From Pyramidobacter sp. YE332 (lineage in GTDB: Bacteria; Synergistota; Synergistia; Synergistales; Dethiosulfovibrionaceae), in contig NZ_CP133038.1 of NCBI RefSeq assembly GCF_033060595.1, forward strand, positions 2,480,001 through 2,544,000: a stretch of DNA of 64,000 bases. The letters are read 5' to 3'. Under the pieces are notes generated by a model. That model was not told the DNA's origin. It made no database searches and worked only from the letters and a program-made list of their open reading frames with translations. Both the position numbers and the translations under genes were made by a program. Shown here piece by piece: positions 2,000-22,515 of the stretch. The stretch's first letter is position 1; every line of letters begins with the position of its first letter.

Positions 2000-2109
2000 A
2001 TCAGCTTTTGACATGACAATGTCATTCGCTCCCGTTTCATGAACGGTATTATCTCAGCGTGACACTTTCTTTGAACAGTTACGAGTGACATTATCACTGA
2101 ACAACGACA
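2000..2109 (-). mobile_element. Remnant of an IS1202/ISNCY-type insertion sequence (one end)
   Basis: About 110 bp closely match the right-hand end of the complete element at 59835-61374. They share the start-codon region of the transposase (residues MTLS on the minus strand), the leader bases around GTTTCATGAACGG, both internal GTGAC-type repeats and the terminal GAACAACGACA, which ends at 2109. The rest of the element is absent and the reading frame degenerates after about four codons. It is therefore a solo end left by deletion, or a MITE-like derivative. Confidence 0.8.
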
Positions 2110-2127
2110 CAGCAACGATATCACCCC

Positions 2128-2155
2128 TTGCGGAAAAACAAATCTGTGGTAGAAT
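2128..2155 (+). promoter_or_regulatory. Sigma-70-like promoter for the 48-residue ORF
   Basis: TTGCGG at 2128-2133 and TAGAAT at 2150-2155 are separated by 16 bp, and a TG lies upstream of the -10 box. It sits 19 bp beyond the outer edge of the IS remnant. The predicted transcript has a leader of about 125 nt, starting with a short hairpin (TAATGCT-ATG-AGCATTA, about 2163-2179). Confidence 0.5.
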
Positions 2156-2287
2156 ATTACGATAATGCTATGAGCATTAAAGAACCGCCCCCGGTCGAAA
2201 GCGTTCGGCTCACGGGAACGCAATGCTTCCGGGCGGCGCAGCAGTACCGTAACAGGTAACAGAAATATGGAGGTCAGCAACAGAAAC

Positions 2288-2434
2288 ATGTCGTACAATG
2301 AAAGACTGAGAAAAGCGTCAAAGTATTGCGAGCGCAACGGCAGTTACCGCGTGATCGTCGGCTGCGGCGAGAAGAAGCTTCTGCTCGTCCGCAATGCCAC
2401 CGGCTACGTCAGGACCGCCCTGCTCGGCGAGTGA
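2288..2434 (+). CDS. Small protein of unknown function (48 aa)
   Basis: A short ORF encoding 48 residues, beginning MSYNERLRKA and ending TALLGE. GGAGG at 2270-2274 lies 13 nt before this ATG. An in-frame ATG at 2267 would add seven residues but lacks a good ribosome site. The protein is basic with two cysteines (SKYC, VGCG) and no membrane segment; I do not recognise the family. Support for a real gene: its own promoter 130 bp upstream, codon use like the neighbours and a strong terminator 40 bp downstream. It could be a small nucleic-acid-binding protein, but nothing proves that. Confidence 0.55.
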   Translation: MSYNERLRKASKYCERNGSYRVIVGCGEKKLLLVRNATGYVRTALLGE

Positions 2435-2474
2435 CCTTTCCCCCGCGCGGGGAAAAGGCTCTGCGACCTTTCAG

Positions 2475-2507
2475 CGCCTCGATCCTTCGGGATCGGGGCG
2501 TTTTTTT
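2475..2507 (+). terminator. Rho-independent terminator
   Basis: An 11-bp stem (2475-2485 with 2490-2500, one G:T pair) is capped by a TTCG tetraloop and followed by seven T (2501-2507). It ends transcription of the small ORF before the MazG-like gene. Confidence 0.9.
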
Positions 2508-2578
2508 ATGGAGCGAAAGAGCGTCTTGCCAAAACGGCGTCTCTCGTATAAAAATAAAGCGTCACGGAGGTGAAAAAC

Positions 2579-2932
2579 ATGACGGACAACGACAGCCTGC
2601 GCGCCTTGAGCGACCGGCTGCGCAGTTTCTGCGAAGAACGCGACTGGGATCAGTTCCACAATCCCAAAGACCTGGCCATCGGCATCGCCACCGAGGCCGG
2701 CGAACTGCTGGAGATCTTCCGCTTCATGAGCGCGGAGCAGCAGGCAGAGCTGCTGGCCGGAGTCGAAACGCGCGGGCACATCGAGGACGAGCTGGCCGAC
2801 GTGTTCTTTTTCGTGCTGCGCTTCGCGCAGATGAACGGCATCGACCTCGGCCGCGCGCTGGAACGCAAAATGGCGAAAAACGCGCGCAAGTACCCGGCGG
2901 ACCAGTGCCGCGGCGACAACCGCAAACGGTGA
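2579..2932 (+). CDS. MazG-like nucleotide pyrophosphohydrolase
   Basis: Single-domain all-alpha NTP pyrophosphohydrolase of the MazG-like/RS21-C6 (dCTPase) group, which hydrolyses (d)NTPs to monophosphate and pyrophosphate for nucleotide-pool cleaning. The 117 residues carry the metal-binding acidic motifs: TEAGELLEIF (E39, E42) and EDELADV (E71, D74), followed by the basic KMAKNARKYP tail. The start is the ATG at 2579, 8 nt after GGAGG; a GTG nine bases upstream lies within the ribosome site. It stands alone between a terminator and a 310-bp spacer. Exact nucleotide preference cannot be told from the sequence. Confidence 0.85.
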   Translation: MTDNDSLRALSDRLRSFCEERDWDQFHNPKDLAIGIATEAGELLEIFRFMSAEQQAELLAGVETRGHIEDELADVFFFVLRFAQMNGIDLGRALERKMAKNARKYPADQCRGDNRKR

Positions 2933-3244
2933 AGAAGCCCCGAAGAGGCCTGAAAGTCGGAACCATCGGTTAAGCTGATGGCTTGCTTTGCCCTTATTAA
3001 GAGTCCACTACCGGCTCCCTTCAAGGGCACCGAAAAACCGACAACCGCACCACTTACTTCCACAGTCTGCCGAGCTGCCCCTAACGGGGCTGAGTCTTTG
3101 TCTTCTCCTTCCGGCTCTCCCGTAAATGAGGCAATCAGTTCTTTTGGCGTCAGAGGAACATTTCGAAAAAACGGCGTCAGTTGCGCGTCGCAGGCCTCTG
3201 CGCTGCGTCAGGAAAACATTTGAATGCACAAAAGGAGCATGTTC
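2933..3244. other. Intergenic region, no convincing gene
   Basis: A 312-bp spacer before the low-GC peptidase E gene. An open frame runs 2978-3223 on the plus strand (81 codons, low-complexity Ser/Pro/Ala-rich) but has no ribosome site or recognisable domain, and an antisense frame is equally open. Possibly part of the same imported segment as peptidase E. I see no clear promoter. Confidence 0.4.
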
Positions 3245-3862
3245 ATGAAGAAGCTGTTTTTAACTTCATATTTTGCCGGCACAGTTGAAGCCTTTAAGGA
3301 GTTCGAGAAGGACAACGTTGAGGGGAAAAAAGTGACTTTCATTCCGACAGCAGGTAATGTCGAAGAATATACGGGATACATAGAAGAAGCTCGAGAGCTC
3401 CTCGCAAAGATGGGATATGAAGTAGATTCTCTCGATATCTCCAGTCTGGACGAAAAAACGCTCACCAACAGAATTTTGGAAAGTCATTTCCTGTATGTCT
3501 CGGGCGGTAACACCTTCTATCTCTTGCAGGAGATAAAAAGGAAGAATCTTGTCGAAGTGATGCGTAGAATGATTGAGAACGGAATCCCCTACGTTGGGGA
3601 ATCAGCGGGAGCAATCATAACTGCCCCGAACATAGAATACAATCAGCTGATGGATGATAAAGAAAAGGGCAATGAACTGAAATCTTATGAGTCATTGGGG
3701 ATCGTTAATTTCTATGTGGTTCCCCACTACAAGGAATTCCCGTTCGAGGAATCGGCCGAACTGACACTTCGCACGTACAAAGAAAAATTGGCTCTGAAGC
3801 CTTTGAATAACAGCGAGGCAATTATTGTGATCGACAACAATTGCCGAGTTGTGGGGAAATAG
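3245..3862 (+). CDS. Peptidase E-like (family S51) serine peptidase
   Basis: Cytoplasmic serine peptidase of the dipeptidase E family, which in characterised members cleaves N-terminal aspartyl dipeptides. The 205 residues show the glutamine-amidotransferase-like fold signatures: VSGGNTF (about 86-91), the nucleophile elbow GESAGA with Ser120, and VVPHY with His161. The start ATG at 3245 is 7 nt after AGGAG; ATGs at 3224 and 3239 are in frame but overlap or precede the ribosome site. Base composition is clearly more AT-rich than the neighbours (codons such as ATA, GAA, AAA are common), which suggests recent acquisition. Length is normal for the family. Confidence 0.85.
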   Translation: MKKLFLTSYFAGTVEAFKEFEKDNVEGKKVTFIPTAGNVEEYTGYIEEARELLAKMGYEVDSLDISSLDEKTLTNRILESHFLYVSGGNTFYLLQEIKRKNLVEVMRRMIENGIPYVGESAGAIITAPNIEYNQLMDDKEKGNELKSYESLGIVNFYVVPHYKEFPFEESAELTLRTYKEKLALKPLNNSEAIIVIDNNCRVVGK

Positions 3863-3910: not shown

Positions 3911-4279
3911 ATGGAAATACGCGATTTCTGGAAGGCGACGCTGGGGCAGGACGCCGCCTCCATGCGGAGGTTCTTCGCGCCCGGCGCCTGCGTGTTCTGG
4001 CACAACACGAACGAAGCGTTCAGCGCCGAAGAGTTCATCGAGGTCAACTGCGAATATCCCGGCGCGTGGGACGGCGAAGTGGAACGGGTCGAACGGATCG
4101 GCGGGCTGATCGTCACGGCGCTCCGCGTCTTCGCCGCGGGAGGCGGCCCGTCCTTTCACGTCGTCTCTTTCTTCCGCGTGCAAGACGGCAAAATCGTCTC
4201 CATCGACGAGTACTGGGGCGACGACGGCGCGCCGCCGCAGTGGCGGCTGGACAAAAAAATCGGCAGAGCCATAAAATAA
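3911..4279 (+). CDS. NTF2/SnoaL-like domain protein
   Basis: A 122-residue protein resembling the nuclear-transport-factor-2-like (SnoaL-like) fold: an N-terminal helix with RDFWKATLGQDAASMRRFF, a central FxEVNCEYPG segment, and late beta strands ending in the typical VVSFFRVQDGKIVSIDEYW. Members range from small enzymes to ligand-binding proteins, so no reaction can be assigned. The ATG at 3911 lies 8 nt after GGAGG; upstream in-frame codons lack this support. GC content returns to the genome level here, unlike the peptidase E gene 48 bp upstream. Confidence 0.75.
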   Translation: MEIRDFWKATLGQDAASMRRFFAPGACVFWHNTNEAFSAEEFIEVNCEYPGAWDGEVERVERIGGLIVTALRVFAAGGGPSFHVVSFFRVQDGKIVSIDEYWGDDGAPPQWRLDKKIGRAIK

Positions 4280-4329
4280 TCCCCGTTCCGCCTTGAACTC
4301 GTGCGAGGTCCATGAGGATAAAATACGGC

Positions 4330-4375
4330 GCGGCCGCCGGTCGGAAAATTCTTCCGGCCGGCGGCCGCGTCTTTT
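4330..4375. terminator. Bidirectional terminator between convergent genes
   Basis: A 15-bp GC-rich stem (4330-4344 with 4354-4368, one G:T) is followed by GTCTTTT. It sits between the plus-strand NTF2-like gene and the minus-strand aminotransferase-like gene. Confidence 0.8.
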
Positions 4376-4381
4376 CTCGAA

Positions 4382-5410
4382 TCACGCTTTCGTTTTCGGC
4401 ATCAGGATCTCGCGCGCGGCCTTGATGAAACGGTCGGTCTCGATGGGGACGCGCAGGCCGAGCGTGAAGTGCCGTTCGTCGATACAGGGCAGAATGAGGA
4501 TGGAGCGCCGGCGCAGCTGAGCGGCCAGCTCGGGAGCGGTGATGTCGTCGCGTTCGAGGCGGCAGAGCACCCAGTTGGCGTCGCTGGGCAGCGGGCGCAG
4601 CCCGGAGATGCGGCGCAGGCGCCCGATCAGGCGCGGCATCAGGCGCGTGACCACGTCGACCGTGCTGGAACGGAAGGGCATGATGCGTTCGAGCGCGGGC
4701 GCCAGATAATGGGCGAGCGGGCTGAGCGCGGGCGCGAACTGGCGGGCGCGCAGGGCGGAGATCCAGCCTTCGCCGCCGACGGCGTAACTGAGCGGACAGA
4801 GCGAGAGCGCCAGAGAATCGGTGAAGGAGCGGATCAGGGCGGCGCGCGGTTCGCGGCGCACGCCCGACCACAGCGAGTTGGTGATGCTGCCGTAGGTGAA
4901 ATCGACGGCCCGTTCGTCGAGGATCAGCCAGCCGCCGCCGGCCAGCCAGCGGTCGAGTTCGGACAGCAGCTCGGCGGGCGGCATGAGGGCGGCGGACGGA
5001 AAGGAGGGATTGCCGAGGATGAGCAGGTCGCAGCCGTCCAGCGCTTCGGCCAGCGCGCCGCGGGGAATGCGGTAATTGTGCTTGAGCGGCAGCGCGAAAC
5101 TTTTCACGTCCAGGCCGCAGCGTTTCAGGACGCGCTCGTACGAACGCGGGCACGGCACGGGCAGCAGCGCGCGGCGCGCTCCGCCGGCGCTGGCGGCGAG
5201 CAGCGCGATCAGCTCCTCTTCGCGCTGCGAGACGGCGATCTGTCCGCTCTGCACGCCGTGGCGCAGCGCGATGGTCTGGCGCAGCGCGGTGAAGTCGGGG
5301 TCGACGGGCGCGTCGCACTGTTCGCGAATGGCGGCCGTCAGCGCCGTTTTGATGGCTTCCGGCGTGCCGAGCGGATTGGCCCGCACGCTGAAATCGAGAA
5401 TTTTGACCAC
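4382..5410 (-). CDS. Fold-type I aminotransferase homolog lacking the PLP lysine
   Basis: Similar to the histidinol-phosphate aminotransferase / CobD (threonine-phosphate decarboxylase) group of class I/II PLP enzymes. The 342 residues run from a short N-terminal arm (ILDFSVRANPLG) through a normal-length large domain. Key motifs are degenerate. The NPNNPTG-type motif is GNPSFPSA (about 133-140). The DEAY motif is LDERAVDF (D165). The position of the Schiff-base lysine, normally SFTKSLALPG, reads SFTDSLALSL, with Asp198 instead of Lys. A normal transaminase reaction is therefore not expected. The frame is uninterrupted and codon use is ordinary, so it looks like a maintained pseudoenzyme rather than junk. 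It is transcribed alone. Confidence 0.8.
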   Translation of the reverse strand: MVKILDFSVRANPLGTPEAIKTALTAAIREQCDAPVDPDFTALRQTIALRHGVQSGQIAVSQREEELIALLAASAGGARRALLPVPCPRSYERVLKRCGLDVKSFALPLKHNYRIPRGALAEALDGCDLLILGNPSFPSAALMPPAELLSELDRWLAGGGWLILDERAVDFTYGSITNSLWSGVRREPRAALIRSFTDSLALSLCPLSYAVGGEGWISALRARQFAPALSPLAHYLAPALERIMPFRSSTVDVVTRLMPRLIGRLRRISGLRPLPSDANWVLCRLERDDITAPELAAQLRRRSILILPCIDERHFTLGLRVPIETDRFIKAAREILMPKTKA

Positions 5411-14537: not shown

Positions 14538-15445
14538 TCCCCCGCCCGAAACCGGAAAAGTTCCGCCTGCGCCGCACGATGATGTTCATGAACGCGCAGA
14601 AGCCCGGACTGATCAAGGACGCGTATATTTACGGAGCCGACTCGATCATGCTCGACCTCGAAGACGCGGTGGCCGAGAACCAGAAGGACGCGGCGCGCTT
14701 TTCGCTTTATCACGCGCTGAAAACCGTCGATTACGGCGACACGGAAGTGCTCGTGCGCATCAACGGCCTCGACACGCCGCACTGGCGCGAGGACGTGCGC
14801 GTCGCTGTGGCCGGAGGCGCCGACGGCATCCGCATCGCCAAGACCGAAAGCGCCGCCGACGTGCAAACCGTGGACGCCGCCGTGACCGAAGCCGAGCGCG
14901 AGTTCGGCGTCGAAGAGGGACGCACGCTGCTGATGGCCGCCATCGAAAGCCCCAAGGGCGTGCTCAACGCTTACGAGATCTGCACCGCTTCGCCCCGCCT
15001 GTTCGGCATCGCCCTTTCCGGCGGCGACTACCGCAAGTGCATGCAGGTCAAGCCGGTCCCTGGCGGTATCGAGATGCTCGCCGCCCGCGGCCAGATGCTG
15101 ATCGCCGCCCGCGCCGCCGGCGTGCAGTGCTTCGACACCGTCTTCACCGATCTCGACGACGAGGCGGGCTTCCGCGCCGAAATGCAGCAGAACAAGGACA
15201 TGGGCTTCGACGGCAAGTCGCTGATCAATCCCCGGCAGATCCGCATCGTCCACGAGATGCTGGCGCCGACGCCGCAGGAGATCGCCGCCGCCGAGACGCT
15301 CGTCAAAGCCTATCGCGAAAACGCCGCCAAAGGCGTCGGCGTGTTCACCATCAACGGCAAAATGATCGACATCGCCTTTGTGCCCGGCGCCGAGCGCGTC
15401 ATCGCGCTCGCCAAGGCCAGCGGCGTTTACGAGGGGGAACTGTAA
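14534..15445 (+). CDS. citE: Citrate lyase beta subunit (citryl-ACP lyase, CitE)
   Basis: Cleaves citryl-ACP to oxaloacetate and acetyl-ACP. The 303 residues form an HpcH/HpaI-type TIM barrel. The N-terminus RRTMMFMNAQKPGLIKDA is typical, as is the Mg-binding LDLEDAVAENQKD segment (about 37-49) and the LLMAAIESPKGVLN segment with the second acidic ligand. Start ATG at 14534 overlaps the citD stop. Length is standard for the family. Together with CitD and CitF it gives oxaloacetate and acetate from citrate in fermentation. Confidence 0.94.
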   Translation: MIPRPKPEKFRLRRTMMFMNAQKPGLIKDAYIYGADSIMLDLEDAVAENQKDAARFSLYHALKTVDYGDTEVLVRINGLDTPHWREDVRVAVAGGADGIRIAKTESAADVQTVDAAVTEAEREFGVEEGRTLLMAAIESPKGVLNAYEICTASPRLFGIALSGGDYRKCMQVKPVPGGIEMLAARGQMLIAARAAGVQCFDTVFTDLDDEAGFRAEMQQNKDMGFDGKSLINPRQIRIVHEMLAPTPQEIAAAETLVKAYRENAAKGVGVFTINGKMIDIAFVPGAERVIALAKASGVYEGEL

Positions 15446-15446
15446 A

Positions 15447-17003
15447 ATGCTGAACGCAGTCGGCCGGGAAATTCCCGAAGAACTGATCGCTCAGGGTTGG
15501 AAACCTTACGCGGGCGCTTACGCCCGCGACGGCCGGTACATAAAAAAACAGGGCCCGCGCACGCGCATCTGCGAAAAGCCGCGGGAAAGCAAAATCGTCG
15601 CCTCCATCCGCGAGGCCATCCTAGCGTGCGGGCTCAAGGACGGCATGACCGTCTCCTTCCATCACCACTTCCGCGACGGCGACTTTGTCGTCAACATGGT
15701 CATGAAGGAGATCGTCGCCCTCGGCCTCAAAGACATCACCATCGCCGCCTCCAGCCTGGGCTCGGCTCACGATCCCGTGGCCCGCTACATCGAAGACGGC
15801 GTCGTCACCGGCCTTCAGACCAGCGGCATCCGCGGGCGGATGGGCGAAGTGGTGTCCCGCGGCAAGCTGAAGACGCCCGCGATCCTGCGCAGCCACGGCG
15901 GCCGCGTGCGCGCCATCGAGGAGGGCGACGTGCACATCGACGTGGCCTTCATCGGTTCTCCCACGTCCGACGAGTACGGCAACTGCCGCGCCGTCGGCGG
16001 CAAGAGCGACTGCGGCGTGCTCTCCTACGCCGTCGTCGATTCGGAATACGCCGACAAGGTCGTCGTCATCACCGACACGCTCGTGCCCTACCCCAACTTT
16101 CCCGCTTCGATCCACGGCGTCAACGTGGACTACGTGGTAAAAGTCGACGAGATCGGCGATCCGAAAAAGATCGCCTCCGCCGCCGCGCGCATGACCCAAA
16201 ATCCCCGCGATCTGATGATGGCCGAGGCCACCGCCAAAGTCATGGCCGCCACGCCGTGGTTCAAAGACGGCTTCAGCTTCCAGACCGGCGCGGGCGGCCC
16301 CTCGCTGGCCGTGAACCGTTTCATCGAGCCGCTCATGCGCGAGCGCGGCATCAAAATGAGCTTCGCCATCGGCGGCATCGCCGGCCCCATCTGCGAGCTG
16401 CAGCGCAAGGGGCTCGTGGGCTGCGTCGTCGATACGCAGGATTTCGACACCGGCGCCATCGACGACATCCGCACCAATCCCCGCCATTACGAGATCAGCG
16501 CCGGCGAATACGCCAACCCCGCCAACAAAGGCGCCTTCGTCAACAAGCTCGACTTCGTCATCCTCGCCGCGCTGGAAGTTGACGTCGACTTCAACGTCAA
16601 CGTCATCACCGGCTCCGACGGCGTGCTGCGCGGCGCGCCCGGCGGCCATCCCGACACCGCCGCCGGCGCCAAATGCACCGTCATCGTCACGCCGCTGACC
16701 CGCGGCCGCATGGCCACCGTCTGCGAGCGCGTCGTCACCGTCACCACCCCCGGCGAGTGCGTCGACGTCGTCGTCACCGATTACGGCGTCGCCGTCAACC
16801 CCAGACGGCAGGACATCGTCGACTGCCTCGACCGCGCCGGCGTCAAGCACGTGAGTATCAAAGAGCTCCAAGAAAAAGCCTACGCGCTCGTCGGCCGCCC
16901 CGATCCGCTGCAATGGAACGACAAAGTCGTCGCCATCCTCGAAGCCCGCGACGGCACGATCCTCGACGTCGTGCGCGAGATCAAGCCGTACGAAAGATCG
17001 TAA
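15447..17003 (+). CDS. citF: Citrate lyase alpha subunit (citrate:acetyl-ACP transferase, CitF)
   Basis: Exchanges acetyl for citrate on CitD to form citryl-ACP. The 518 residues (family about 510) carry conserved stretches such as MTVSFHHHFRDGDFVVNMVM, FIGSPTSDEYGNCRAVGGKSDCG (about 171-193) and GAPGGHPDTAAGAK (about 394-407). The ATG at 15447 lies one base after the citE stop, with GAGGGGGAACT upstream. A strong terminator follows, so the operon ends here. The activation and prosthetic-group genes citC, citX and citG are not in the window and must lie elsewhere if the lyase is functional. Confidence 0.95.
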   Translation: MLNAVGREIPEELIAQGWKPYAGAYARDGRYIKKQGPRTRICEKPRESKIVASIREAILACGLKDGMTVSFHHHFRDGDFVVNMVMKEIVALGLKDITIAASSLGSAHDPVARYIEDGVVTGLQTSGIRGRMGEVVSRGKLKTPAILRSHGGRVRAIEEGDVHIDVAFIGSPTSDEYGNCRAVGGKSDCGVLSYAVVDSEYADKVVVITDTLVPYPNFPASIHGVNVDYVVKVDEIGDPKKIASAAARMTQNPRDLMMAEATAKVMAATPWFKDGFSFQTGAGGPSLAVNRFIEPLMRERGIKMSFAIGGIAGPICELQRKGLVGCVVDTQDFDTGAIDDIRTNPRHYEISAGEYANPANKGAFVNKLDFVILAALEVDVDFNVNVITGSDGVLRGAPGGHPDTAAGAKCTVIVTPLTRGRMATVCERVVTVTTPGECVDVVVTDYGVAVNPRRQDIVDCLDRAGVKHVSIKELQEKAYALVGRPDPLQWNDKVVAILEARDGTILDVVREIKPYERS

Positions 17004-17112: not shown

Positions 17113-17168
17113 AAAAAAAATCTGCCGCGTCCCTCGCGAAAGAGCGAAGGACGCGGCAGATTTTTTTT
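17113..17168. terminator. Strong terminator after citF
   Basis: A perfect 20-bp stem (17113-17132 with 17149-17168) has eight A at one end and eight T at the other. It ends the tct-cit operon and insulates the adhesin promoter. Confidence 0.93.
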
Positions 17169-17291
17169 CGCCGGGCGCCGCAAAACCTTTCTTCTTGCAT
17201 TCCTCCATGCCTTCGCGATACCTTTCGCGCGGGCGTCCATTTTTCATCGAGACGATGAATTTAAATAATCTTATATGAAATAATTATCTTA

Positions 17292-17338
17292 CCCCCCCCC
17301 CGAGCCGAAATTAACTTAATAATCAGGTTTATTATAAA
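17292..17338 (+). promoter_or_regulatory. C10 homopolymer tract and promoter of the adhesin gene
   Basis: Ten consecutive C (17292-17301) lie 9 bp upstream of a likely -35 box (TTAACT, 17311-17316); TATAAA (17333-17338) is 16 bp further. The adhesin ATG is 105 bp downstream with a very AT-rich leader. Homopolymers of this length in adhesin promoters (for example the poly-G of Moraxella UspA1) change length by slippage and vary expression. Here the tract lies just outside the core promoter, so it would act on an upstream binding site. That role is inferred. Confidence 0.6.
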
Positions 17339-17442
17339 GATAAACATGTTACCATGAATTTGTTTTGTTGTTTCTGCAAAATACGTTTTCACCCCACAAT
17401 TCCGTGGATATTTTTTGAAGTTCCGGAAGGAGGAAATTTTTG

Positions 17443-20400
17443 ATGGAAAAGGGAAACACGCATGGTCCGCACCGCTCCGCTCCCGAGGCGCACGGGACGA
17501 AAAGGAATTCGTCGGCCGTCCTGAAAGGCGGCGCGCTGGCGGCCGTGGCGCTCGGCCTGATGCTGCTGCGCCCCGTGCCGGGAGCAGCGGCGCCGGACGG
17601 CGTGACGACATTCGTCGAGCCGGGGAACCAGAACATCAGAATCGGCAACGATACGCAGCTTCGCAACAACGCGGCGACCAACGGCGCGGTCGTCATCGGC
17701 GACCACGCGCAGATCGACGATTACGTCATGCAGGAAGGCAGCATCGCTATCGGCAAGAACGCTTTCGTCGAGAACATGTACGGCAATCAGGAAAAATTCT
17801 TCAAATTCGGGCAGACAGATGAGAAGAAATGGGCGAGCAGCGTCGCCATCGGCCAGAACGCCTACGCCCGCTCCGGCAGCACGATGATCGGGGACCACAA
17901 ATACGTCGGGAAACTCGGCGACGTGGAAGTCGACGGCTCCGACGTGTTAAACGTCAAATCGAGAAACGTGAACATCAACGCCACCACCATCGGCGCGAAC
18001 AGTTACAATCAGGGAGCGTTTTCCTCCGTGCTCGGCACGTATTCCATCATTTCCGGAAAATATAATGGCAGTAATTGGTCTTCTTATGTTACACAAAATA
18101 TGGGGGCCAATATCGTCGGTTCCCTGAACAGCATCGAATCGAACAGCTCTTCTTCGGAAGTTTCAGGGATCGCCAACAGCGTCGTCGGTACGGCGAACCG
18201 CACGAACAACGCCAACGGCGCCTTGATCTTCGGCACCGGCAACGAAGTGGAAAATTCGATCGGCGCGATATCGGGCATCAGCATGTTTACCGGCGGCGGA
18301 AATTCGGCCAAAGAGTTTGCCGACACGCTGCGCGGCGCCGTCAAATCGTCCGAAGGCGGCGGGGCGGTGCTGGCCATCGGCGGCGGGAACAAGGCGAACT
18401 ACGCCATGACCTCGCAGCTGATCGGCGTCAATAACACGCTGACGGGGACAAACAGCGATGCCAGCCGCTACAACATGATCAATGGGTACAAGAATACCGG
18501 AGAAAAAGTAAAACACACGTATGTGCTGGGCGAGGAGAACAACGTCAAAGACAGCGAAGACGTACGGGTCATCGGCAAGAAGAATACCGTGACGAACAGC
18601 GACCGCCAGAACGTGTTCGGCGACAACAACAGCATCACGGAGCGGGATGCCGGCACCGTTTCCGGATATCAGGGCATCGTGCGCAACAGCACCTCGGATC
18701 TGGTCATCGGCATGGGCAACAAAATTTCCGGCAACGATACCTACATGAAGGGGACGGAAAGCCTCACCATCATCGGGAACAACAACGAAACGACCAATCC
18801 CAACTCGGGCATCGTAATCGGCGATTATCAAACATTTGGCACAATCAAGGAATCGGTAATCATCGGCTCCATGACACCGGAGGAAAAGGCGTCCGGCAAA
18901 AGGGAACAGGGCAGCGGCAGCGTTGTCGTGGGGTATAATGCGCAAAGCGCCCGGGGATTGAGCGTGGCGGTGGGACACAGCGCACTGGCTCTGGGGCACG
19001 AAGGAACTGTGACAGGACACAATTCTGTCATTGAAAGCAATGATGGCTTTTTTCCGAATATCTGGTCTTCCATTTATGGGGTAAATAATAAGATTACCTC
19101 GGACGGTGACACCTCAAATGGCGTGGCGGGCAGTATAATCGGCACCTGGAACAAACTGGATAATGCAGATAATTCCATGGTATTCGGTTCAGGAAATATC
19201 ATTTCTCACGCCACAGGAGACATGTCAAGCGGACTGGAGGGAACATTCGGGCAAGGCGCTATGACAGAATTGCTTTTCCGCAGCGGTTATCAGGAAGGGT
19301 ATTCGGATCAGGCTGCAAAAGCAATGGGTAATTTTGCGGCTACCGGCGGCGGCTCTGTCTTGGCTGTGGGTAACGGCAACACCTCTGATTATGCAAGGCG
19401 TTCTCAAATCATCGGAACGGGAAATATCCTGAACGGTACGACAAACGGCGTCAGCTCCAACAATACAGTGACGGGGTTCCAGAACACAGGAATCAACGTG
19501 AACCGCGTGTCCGTCGTAGGTACGGGAAACAGTGTGTCTGACGGAACGGCTGACGTGGTGATCGGCGATTACCATCAACTGTCCGGCGGAGCGAATAATG
19601 TCGTTCTTGGCTCCATGGCAACCAGGGAAGATGTAGTGAGCAAAACCTACACGCCCAGTTTGGGAAATTCTGCCGGTACGCCGGGAGGATATACAGGCAT
19701 ACCGATTCCATACAATGTGAAAGCTATTGTCCCGGATAAGACACATACCGCCAATGTTAGCAACGCCGTCATGCTCGGCTACAATACGGATGTGCAGAAA
19801 AACGGCGGCGTAGCCCTCGGCAGCGAGTCTGTTTCCTCCGTGGACGCCGGGGTATACGGTTATAACCCCGCCACAAAGAAAAACATCCAAAATGACGCGG
19901 AAATAGCAACTTTGTCAGGAAAAACAGAAAGACTGACACAGCTGAACGCAGCATTACCCGGTTTGGAATCCGATTACACCACGAAGAAAGCGGACTACGA
20001 AGGAAAAGTCAATGATTTCCTGGAGAAGAGCGCCGCATATACACAGGCTTATCAGACTTATCACAGCTACGAGCATTCCGGTAATCAATATGATTTGGCA
20101 CGCAAGAAAAAAATGGATGATGCCAAAGCGGCCATGGATACGGCTCAGGCAGCCATGAATTCCGCTAAAACCGGGTATACGGATGCGGAGACAAAGTACG
20201 ATACCGCTCGCGGCGAAAGGAATCTGATTGTCGGCACCTGGAAAGCCACCGCAGCCGCCGTTTCCGTAGGCGACGTTTCAAAAGGCGTCACTCGCCAGAT
20301 CACAGGCGTGGCGGCCGGCACGGAAGACACCGACGCCGTCAACGTGGCGCAGATGAAAGCTTTGAATACGGCCATAGCAAACGGCGCCGTCCGCTACTAT

Positions 20401-22515
20401 TCCGTGAAGAGCGACAAACAGGGAGCGGGGACGAACTATGCCAACGACGGAGCGACCGGGACGGACAGCATGGTCATCGGCATTTCCTCCTCGTCTTCCG
20501 GCAACAACAGCACCGTCCTCGGCAACAACAACACGCTGGCGGGCGTCAAGAATGGAAGGAACAACAGCATCGTCGTCGGCCAGAGCCTGACCGTGGACGG
20601 CGTGCATAACGCAGTCTTCGGTACGGATTACGAGAATTACGACAATAAAATAACCCATGTGGCCGGTGAACAGAATACGGTCCTTGGCGTGGGGAACCTT
20701 GTGGGCTACACGGCGGAACGGAACGGCACCACATGGACATATACCAAGACCGGCGGGGGAAGAGGTTCTGACCAGAACGTGGCCGTCGGTATGAAGAATA
20801 CGGCAAACGGCGGCAGCGTCGTCGTCGGTACCGACTCCGAAGCGGAAAATCTGGGCTCCTCTTTCGGCATTGCCAATAAAATCATCGGCTCAAATGACAA
20901 TCACGGCGGCGGACAGTGGGGCGTGGCGCTGGGGAATAAACTGACCGTATCCGGCGAAATGGCAGTGGCTGTCGGCAATGAAAGTACGGCGGAAGGGGGC
21001 TGGACCGTTGCCATCGGAGCGGAAAGCGCAACGAAAAAGACCATGGATGTCGCCATGGGTTGGCATGCAAACGCTTCCGGCGGCTGGTCGATGGCGCTGG
21101 GCGCAGACAGCGCGGCAAACGCGCAGACCGCTACCGCTGTCGGCGGCTATGGAGCGAAAGCTACAACGGACGCTGGCGTAGCGCTGGGCTCCTACAGCGT
21201 GGCGGATACGGCTGCGAACGTGCAAGGCTATGATCCTTCCACCGGAGCCGCGTCCACGGAGAGCGGCAGCGCGTGGCAATCCACCTTGGGCGCGCTTTCC
21301 ATCGGCGACAAGACGACAGGACGCACCCGCCAGATCACCAACGTCGCAGCCGGTTTTGAAGATACCGACGCCGTCAACGTCGCCCAACTTCGGGCGGCCG
21401 TCTCCGCCGCAGGCGGGGCCGCGACCTACAAATTCACCCTCAGCGACTCCACAACGTCTCCCGCGCACACGGTCACGCTCGGACAAAGCGCGACGCCGGA
21501 CATCAAGTTCGTCGGCGCCAACGGCGTCATTACCACCGTCGCGGGCGGCGTCGTCACGATCGGCCTCGATCCCGACGCGGGGCAGGGCGGCAAATGGAAC
21601 CTTCAGACCAATGGAGGACCGTCGATCGTCGTCGCCAAGAACAATACCGTCCAGTTCAAGAACGGCAGCAACATTGAAATTACCCGCGACGAAAGAGACG
21701 TGACCGTGCGCGTCGTCGACGCGCCCACCTTCGCCGGCAAAGTCACCGCCAAAGGCTTCGACGCGACCGGCAACAAGATCGTCAACGTCGCCAGGGGAGA
21801 CGTCACTCAGACCAGCGCCGACGCGGTCAACGGCTCGCAGCTCTGGGGCGTGTCGTCGAGCGTCTCCAATCACCTCGGCGGCGGCTCCTCTGTCAACCCT
21901 GACGGCTCCGTCTCCGCCCCCACCTACGTCATCCGCGGCGGCACGTACCATAACGTCGGCGACGCCCTCAGCGCCGTCGACACCCAGTTCACCAACATCT
22001 ACAACAACTTCGGCAGCGTCTACAACCAGATGGGCGAACTGAGAAGCGAAATCAAGAGCACCGGCGCGCTCGGCTCCGCGCTCGCCGGACTGAAACCGAT
22101 GCAGTACGACCCCGTCGAGCCCAGCCAGATCATGGCCGGCTTCGGAGCGTACAGAGGCGAGTACGCGCTGGCCCTCGGCTTCGCGCACTACCTGAAAGAA
22201 GACTTCATGGTCCACGCCGGAGTGTCCGTCACGCACCACGGCGAGTCGATGGCCAACGCCGGCCTGACGTGGAAGATCGGCCGCAAGGAAGACAAAGACC
22301 AGATCCCCGAACGCTACCGCTCCGGCCCGATCAGCAGCGTCTACGTGATGCAGAAGGAGAACGCCGAGCTGCAGGCCGAGGTGTCTTCGCTCAAGCACGA
22401 ACTCGTCGAGAGCAAAGCCAATCAGGCGCGAGAGATCGCCGCGGTCAAGGCGGAAATGGAGGCGCGCGTGGAGCGCCTCGAGCGCCTGCTGCGCGCTTCG
22501 GGCAAGATCAGATAA
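17443..22515 (+). CDS. YadA-like trimeric autotransporter adhesin
   Basis: Surface adhesin of the trimeric autotransporter (type Vc) class, 1690 residues. An extended signal peptide (positively charged region to about 25, hydrophobic core about 30-45, cleavage near GAAA-PDG) precedes a very long head of left-handed beta-roll repeats rich in VIG/NN motifs (about 55-810 and 975-1260). A coiled-coil segment (about 815-930) interrupts the head. Two near-identical neck motifs ([21 protein letters not shown]) lie at about 950 and 1295, then the stalk, then the four-strand membrane anchor (about 1546-1613). A 77-residue coiled-coil tail follows the anchor. The ATG is 8 nt after AAGGAGGA. The region 19000-21200 is AT-richer than the ends, suggesting domain exchange. 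Confidence 0.93.

Follow-up and report, generated by a model that had tools for sequence, protein, structure and literature searches.

The C10 homopolymer upstream of a giant adhesin gene in Pyramidobacter sp. YE332 is probably a contingency locus, at which slipped-strand mispairing would set how strongly the trimeric autotransporter adhesin (TAA) gene behind it is transcribed. About nine tracts of this kind, the C10 tract among them, are found at the adhesin genes of this genome, in three placements: in a predicted promoter spacer, upstream of a candidate -35 box, and behind the ATG. Phase variation, which an earlier note on this DNA had raised as a possibility, appears probable because tract length differs between close genomes and because, across the genome, long C/G runs are found preferentially at adhesin genes. 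Most known examples of simple-repeat phase variation come from proteobacterial pathogens and Helicobacter pylori. In a literature search we found no report of phase variation in Pyramidobacter and no earlier such report for Synergistota; for trimeric autotransporters in Synergistetes, it yielded only a Veillonella paper. By analogy, the tract would work like known contingency loci, for which the phylum Synergistota would be new according to this search.

In the window, i.e., the whole 64-kb stretch of DNA analysed, the tract occupies positions 17292-17301, with C on the coding strand of the adhesin, and precedes the adhesin ATG by 141 bp. The earlier note had described a run of ten C there and had noticed no comparable homopolymer elsewhere in the window, and both statements hold: C/G runs elsewhere do not exceed 6 (C6), and the longest A/T run is 8. 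Markov simulation gives an expectation of 0.08 C/G runs of 10 or more per 64 kb at order 1 and 0.017 at order 3, and at order 4 no such run appeared in 60 simulations. The locus thus pairs a homopolymer longer than expected by chance with a surface-protein gene, as contingency loci do.

The adhesin gene (17443-22515, plus strand) encodes 1690 residues from the ATG at 17443, or 1691 from a TTG at 17440, and is preceded by the ribosome-binding site AGGAGG (17428-17433, plus strand). A domain search identified YadA_stalk (PF05662, 2.1e-28) and YadA_anchor (PF03895, 8.4e-11), so that the protein has the stalk repeats and C-terminal YadA anchor of a YadA-type TAA and is the giant adhesin that the earlier note had taken it to be. 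Its upstream neighbor is citF (15378-17003, plus strand), which encodes the citrate lyase alpha subunit. The gap between the two genes contains a strong predicted terminator hairpin (17118-17163; reported on the minus strand), whose 20-bp stem is flanked by a run of A at one end and of T at the other. On the 3′ side of the adhesin is an inverted repeat, terminator-like by eye, followed by a peptidase M19 gene. Because hairpins flank the adhesin on both sides, it appears to form its own transcription unit, and with a terminator after citF it would have to be served by a separate promoter located at roughly 17170-17425. In a search for known RNA elements around the tract, the sole hits, sub-threshold ones to unrelated families, fell on the terminator hairpin, and the predicted fold of the leader was no more stable than those of shuffled sequences. 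Phage origin was also considered and set aside after a search of a phage collection gave no match.

We compared YE332 (G000) with the conspecific Pyramidobacter sp. C12-8 (G041) and with two genomes of other Pyramidobacter species (G003 and G001). The tract is C10 in YE332, C8 in C12-8 and TC10 in the sister species G003, lengths that are derived from assemblies and possibly off by one; the interval between TTATCTTA and GAGCCG is consequently 10, 8 and 11, respectively. From the end of the tract to just before the ribosome-binding site (17302-17424, plus strand, 123 bp), the alignment of the three genomes contains no substitutions, in contrast to citF, in which 36 (C12-8) and 41 (G003) of 1626 positions differ. 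The AT-rich stretch on the other side of the tract (17231-17291) carries one substitution in each of the two relatives. The earlier note had named constant tract length as the observation that would speak against phase variation; instead, the length varies between close strains while the flanks are stable, which is the pattern of a contingency locus. To provide a control, we compared G/C runs with matched flanks at the loci examined: those of 5-7 were equal in length in YE332 and C12-8 in 36 of 37 cases, and of the six of at least 8, three had changed length. Of the five long-run ortholog pairs at adhesin promoters, two show no length difference between the strains. In the more distant congener G001, citF is present and the adhesin and its promoter are absent at this locus.

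Where the tract lies with respect to the transcription start is harder to establish. The earlier note had placed it 9 bp upstream of a likely -35 box. The hexamer TTAACT (17311-17316, plus strand) does lie at this distance, 9 bp, from the tract end and can be paired with TATAAA (17333-17338, plus strand) at a spacer of 16, but the pair is weak: in such AT-rich DNA, 27% of shuffles reach its score of 9.3. An alternative candidate, TTTTCA-17-AATAAT (17241-17269, plus strand), has the best score on the plus strand, 10.7. Since neither candidate promoter outscores shuffles, the placement of the tract with respect to the start site is uncertain.

If the alternative promoter were the one that drives the adhesin, the tract would be transcribed as part of the 5′ untranslated leader, where its length would alter mRNA stability or translation. 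We consider this arrangement unlikely, despite the higher score of TTTTCA-17-AATAAT and a precedent in Moraxella catarrhalis, in which the TAA gene uspA1 is preceded by a tract of 8-12 Gs whose length goes with large changes in mRNA level (PMC7302503). The uspA1 tract resembles ours in being a poly-G/C tract upstream of a TAA gene, but it belongs to an unrelated phylum, and the window tract is placed only against candidate promoters. The score of the upstream pair, moreover, is no better than that of shuffles, and the substitution-free segment begins 3′ of the tract, which fits a core promoter at that position equally well.

In the contingency-locus reading that we favor, the tract separates the AT-rich stretch (17231-17291, plus strand), which ends in AATAATTATCTTA and may be an UP-like or regulator-binding region, from the candidate core promoter TTAACT-16-TATAAA. 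Replication slippage within clones would add or remove Cs, and each C gained or lost would displace the UP-like region by ~3.4 Å, and rotate it by ~34 degrees, with respect to RNA polymerase. Adhesin output would consequently be graded rather than strictly on or off, by analogy with sabA and nadA. In H. pylori sabA, a T tract beside the -35 box shifts UP-like DNA relative to the core promoter and produces graded output (PMC4081817). The window locus shares with sabA a homopolymer just 5′ of a (here candidate) -35 box, an adhesin gene downstream, AT-rich UP-like DNA beyond the tract, and a length that varies between strains. It differs in that the repeated base is C rather than T, the adhesin belongs to another family, and the effect on polymerase binding, measured in sabA, is an inference for the window tract, whose promoter is a candidate. 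In Neisseria meningitidis nadA, a TAAA tract acts together with the NadR repressor, with involvement of IHF (PMC2791445). There, too, a repeat lies 5′ of the core promoter of a TAA gene (a candidate promoter in our case), and the spacing of the flanking sites matters, but the nadA repeat is a tetranucleotide that works with a repressor and IHF, whereas the window tract is a homopolymer of single Cs. The geometry of these systems, with a tract abutting the core promoter and AT-rich DNA beyond it, thus fits the window locus, around a candidate promoter that scores no higher than shuffles.

Genome-wide, the distribution of long runs is strongly skewed toward adhesins. In the 2.8-Mb genome, seven C/G runs reach a length of at least 9 and twelve a length of at least 8. 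For five of the seven, a YadA-family gene begins no more than 300 bp downstream. With 17 YadA-anchor loci in the genome, the binomial probability of five of seven runs near such loci is 4e-13, a value that ignores paralogy, paralogous promoters being non-independent. Nine of the twelve runs of 8 or more are at TAA genes, and the remaining three are at a casA-like gene (by eye), the 3′ end of a tRNA-Leu gene and the region of a penicillin-binding-protein-like frame (by eye). The C9 run within the casA/cse1-like gene (G000:C1:48138; L001 1501-1509) has equal length in both conspecific genomes. The run at the 3′ end of tRNA-Leu (anticodon AAG) is C10 in YE332 (G000:C1:1344766-1344775; L013 1501-1510), 10 in G001 and 9 in G003, and no run of 8 or more was seen there in C12-8.

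The tract could also be a hypermutable homopolymer that has no effect on expression. A long run away from adhesins varies as well (G000:C1:1870341, G8/G9), and scattered C9 runs occur in other genomes of the family. However, long runs cluster strongly at adhesin genes, where they take three placements, and the window has no other C/G run longer than 6, which makes such neutrality distinctly unlikely.

Seven TAA genes share an upstream element of a different build, in which ATCTTTACRC is followed by a G8-G13 tract and this by TATGAT-like hexamers. Paired with TTTACR, these hexamers would form promoters with predicted spacers of 13-18 in the two genomes. In a test of seven promoters, the best pair spanning the tract beat 89-100% of shuffles, a result of sequence prediction only. 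The predicted promoter score is maximal at a spacer of 17, so length changes near the observed values should raise or lower promoter strength. A tract between -35-like and -10-like hexamers is the arrangement found in Neisseria porA, opc and fetA, in which tracts lie in promoter spacers (described in PMC2791445), and the seven sister loci are predicted to resemble these genes. ATCTTTACRC followed by at least seven Gs occurs seven times in YE332, five times in the conspecific genome and once in a congener. The remaining 148 genomes in the sample of the order lack it, and a reversed control pattern had no match. A YadA-family gene follows every copy whose downstream gene was read. Ortholog lengths in the two conspecific genomes are 8/9, 13/9, 9/9 and 10/10, the 13/9 pair also differing in its flank.

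The window tract departs from these seven better-supported tracts in having C on the coding strand and in lacking ATCTTTACRC. A promoter spacer enclosing it, as predicted for the sister genes and possibly on the minus strand, is very improbable, even though its plus-strand flank TTATCTTAC is similar to the shared TTATCTTTAC and TTAATT-17-TAAGAT can be drawn on the minus strand at C10. For tract lengths from 6 to 17, plus-strand pairs placed across the tract score at most 5.8. With no good -35/-10 pair over the tract, a porA-type spacer switch is unsupported at the window locus; unlike porA, opc and fetA, the tract lies in no recognizable spacer. The minus-strand promoter is weak, and its transcript would head away from the adhesin and into the terminator (17163-17118). 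Finally, an error of assembly or sequencing is hardly credible as the source of the length difference: homopolymers are error-prone and the lengths were taken from assemblies, but the difference amounts to two bases, the C12-8 contigs seen name several-hundred-fold coverage, and the shorter runs agree at 36/37.

The third placement is found at another giant adhesin of YE332, in which a G8 tract lies behind the ATG (G000:C1:1686829-1686836, within L151, G000:C1:1679000-1689000). The YE332 frame closes after 17 codons, and the ortholog in C12-8 is open for 2222 codons. Taken together, we think it fairly likely that Pyramidobacter has a genome-wide phase-variable TAA repertoire, in which seven genes would be controlled by the shared, apparently genus-specific G-tract-spacer promoter element, one by the window C tract upstream of the candidate -35 box, and at least one by a tract behind the ATG. 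Since other adhesin genes carry related tracts, either within a predicted promoter spacer or immediately after the ATG, the repertoire would reassort at random, each cell displaying its own combination of adhesins. A Synergistota commensal or opportunist appears to apply the same principle to most of its giant adhesins through three tract placements. If so, adhesin display in the genus would be heterogeneous within clones, and genomes or transcriptomes from single colonies would misstate it. The two conspecific genomes supply concrete pairs of tract lengths.

Several further observations concern adhesin genes and long runs elsewhere. Two of the adhesin genes with G-tract promoters are split by insertion sequences, in which transposase-like frames were recognized by eye (L160, about 4142-5048; L157, about 2109-3320), and L161 (reverse strand) contains a near-identical adhesin with a frame break at the site of the L160 insertion. 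Three YadA-anchor frames (G000:C1:7617, 2732892 and 2758680; L143-L145) have equal scores, and two of them share a 750-aa frame, which suggests recent duplications. In G003, a G9 run (contig C33; L204 912-920) in the context ACATATCT-G9-TATGACTT lies about 160 bp 5′ of a 648-aa open frame that has a signal-peptide-like start and no Pfam match. In C12-8, a G11 run (G041:C113:15601; L174 about 2602) lies at the end of an acetyltransferase-like gene adjacent to a glycosyltransferase-like gene, suggesting a possible phase-variable surface polysaccharide.
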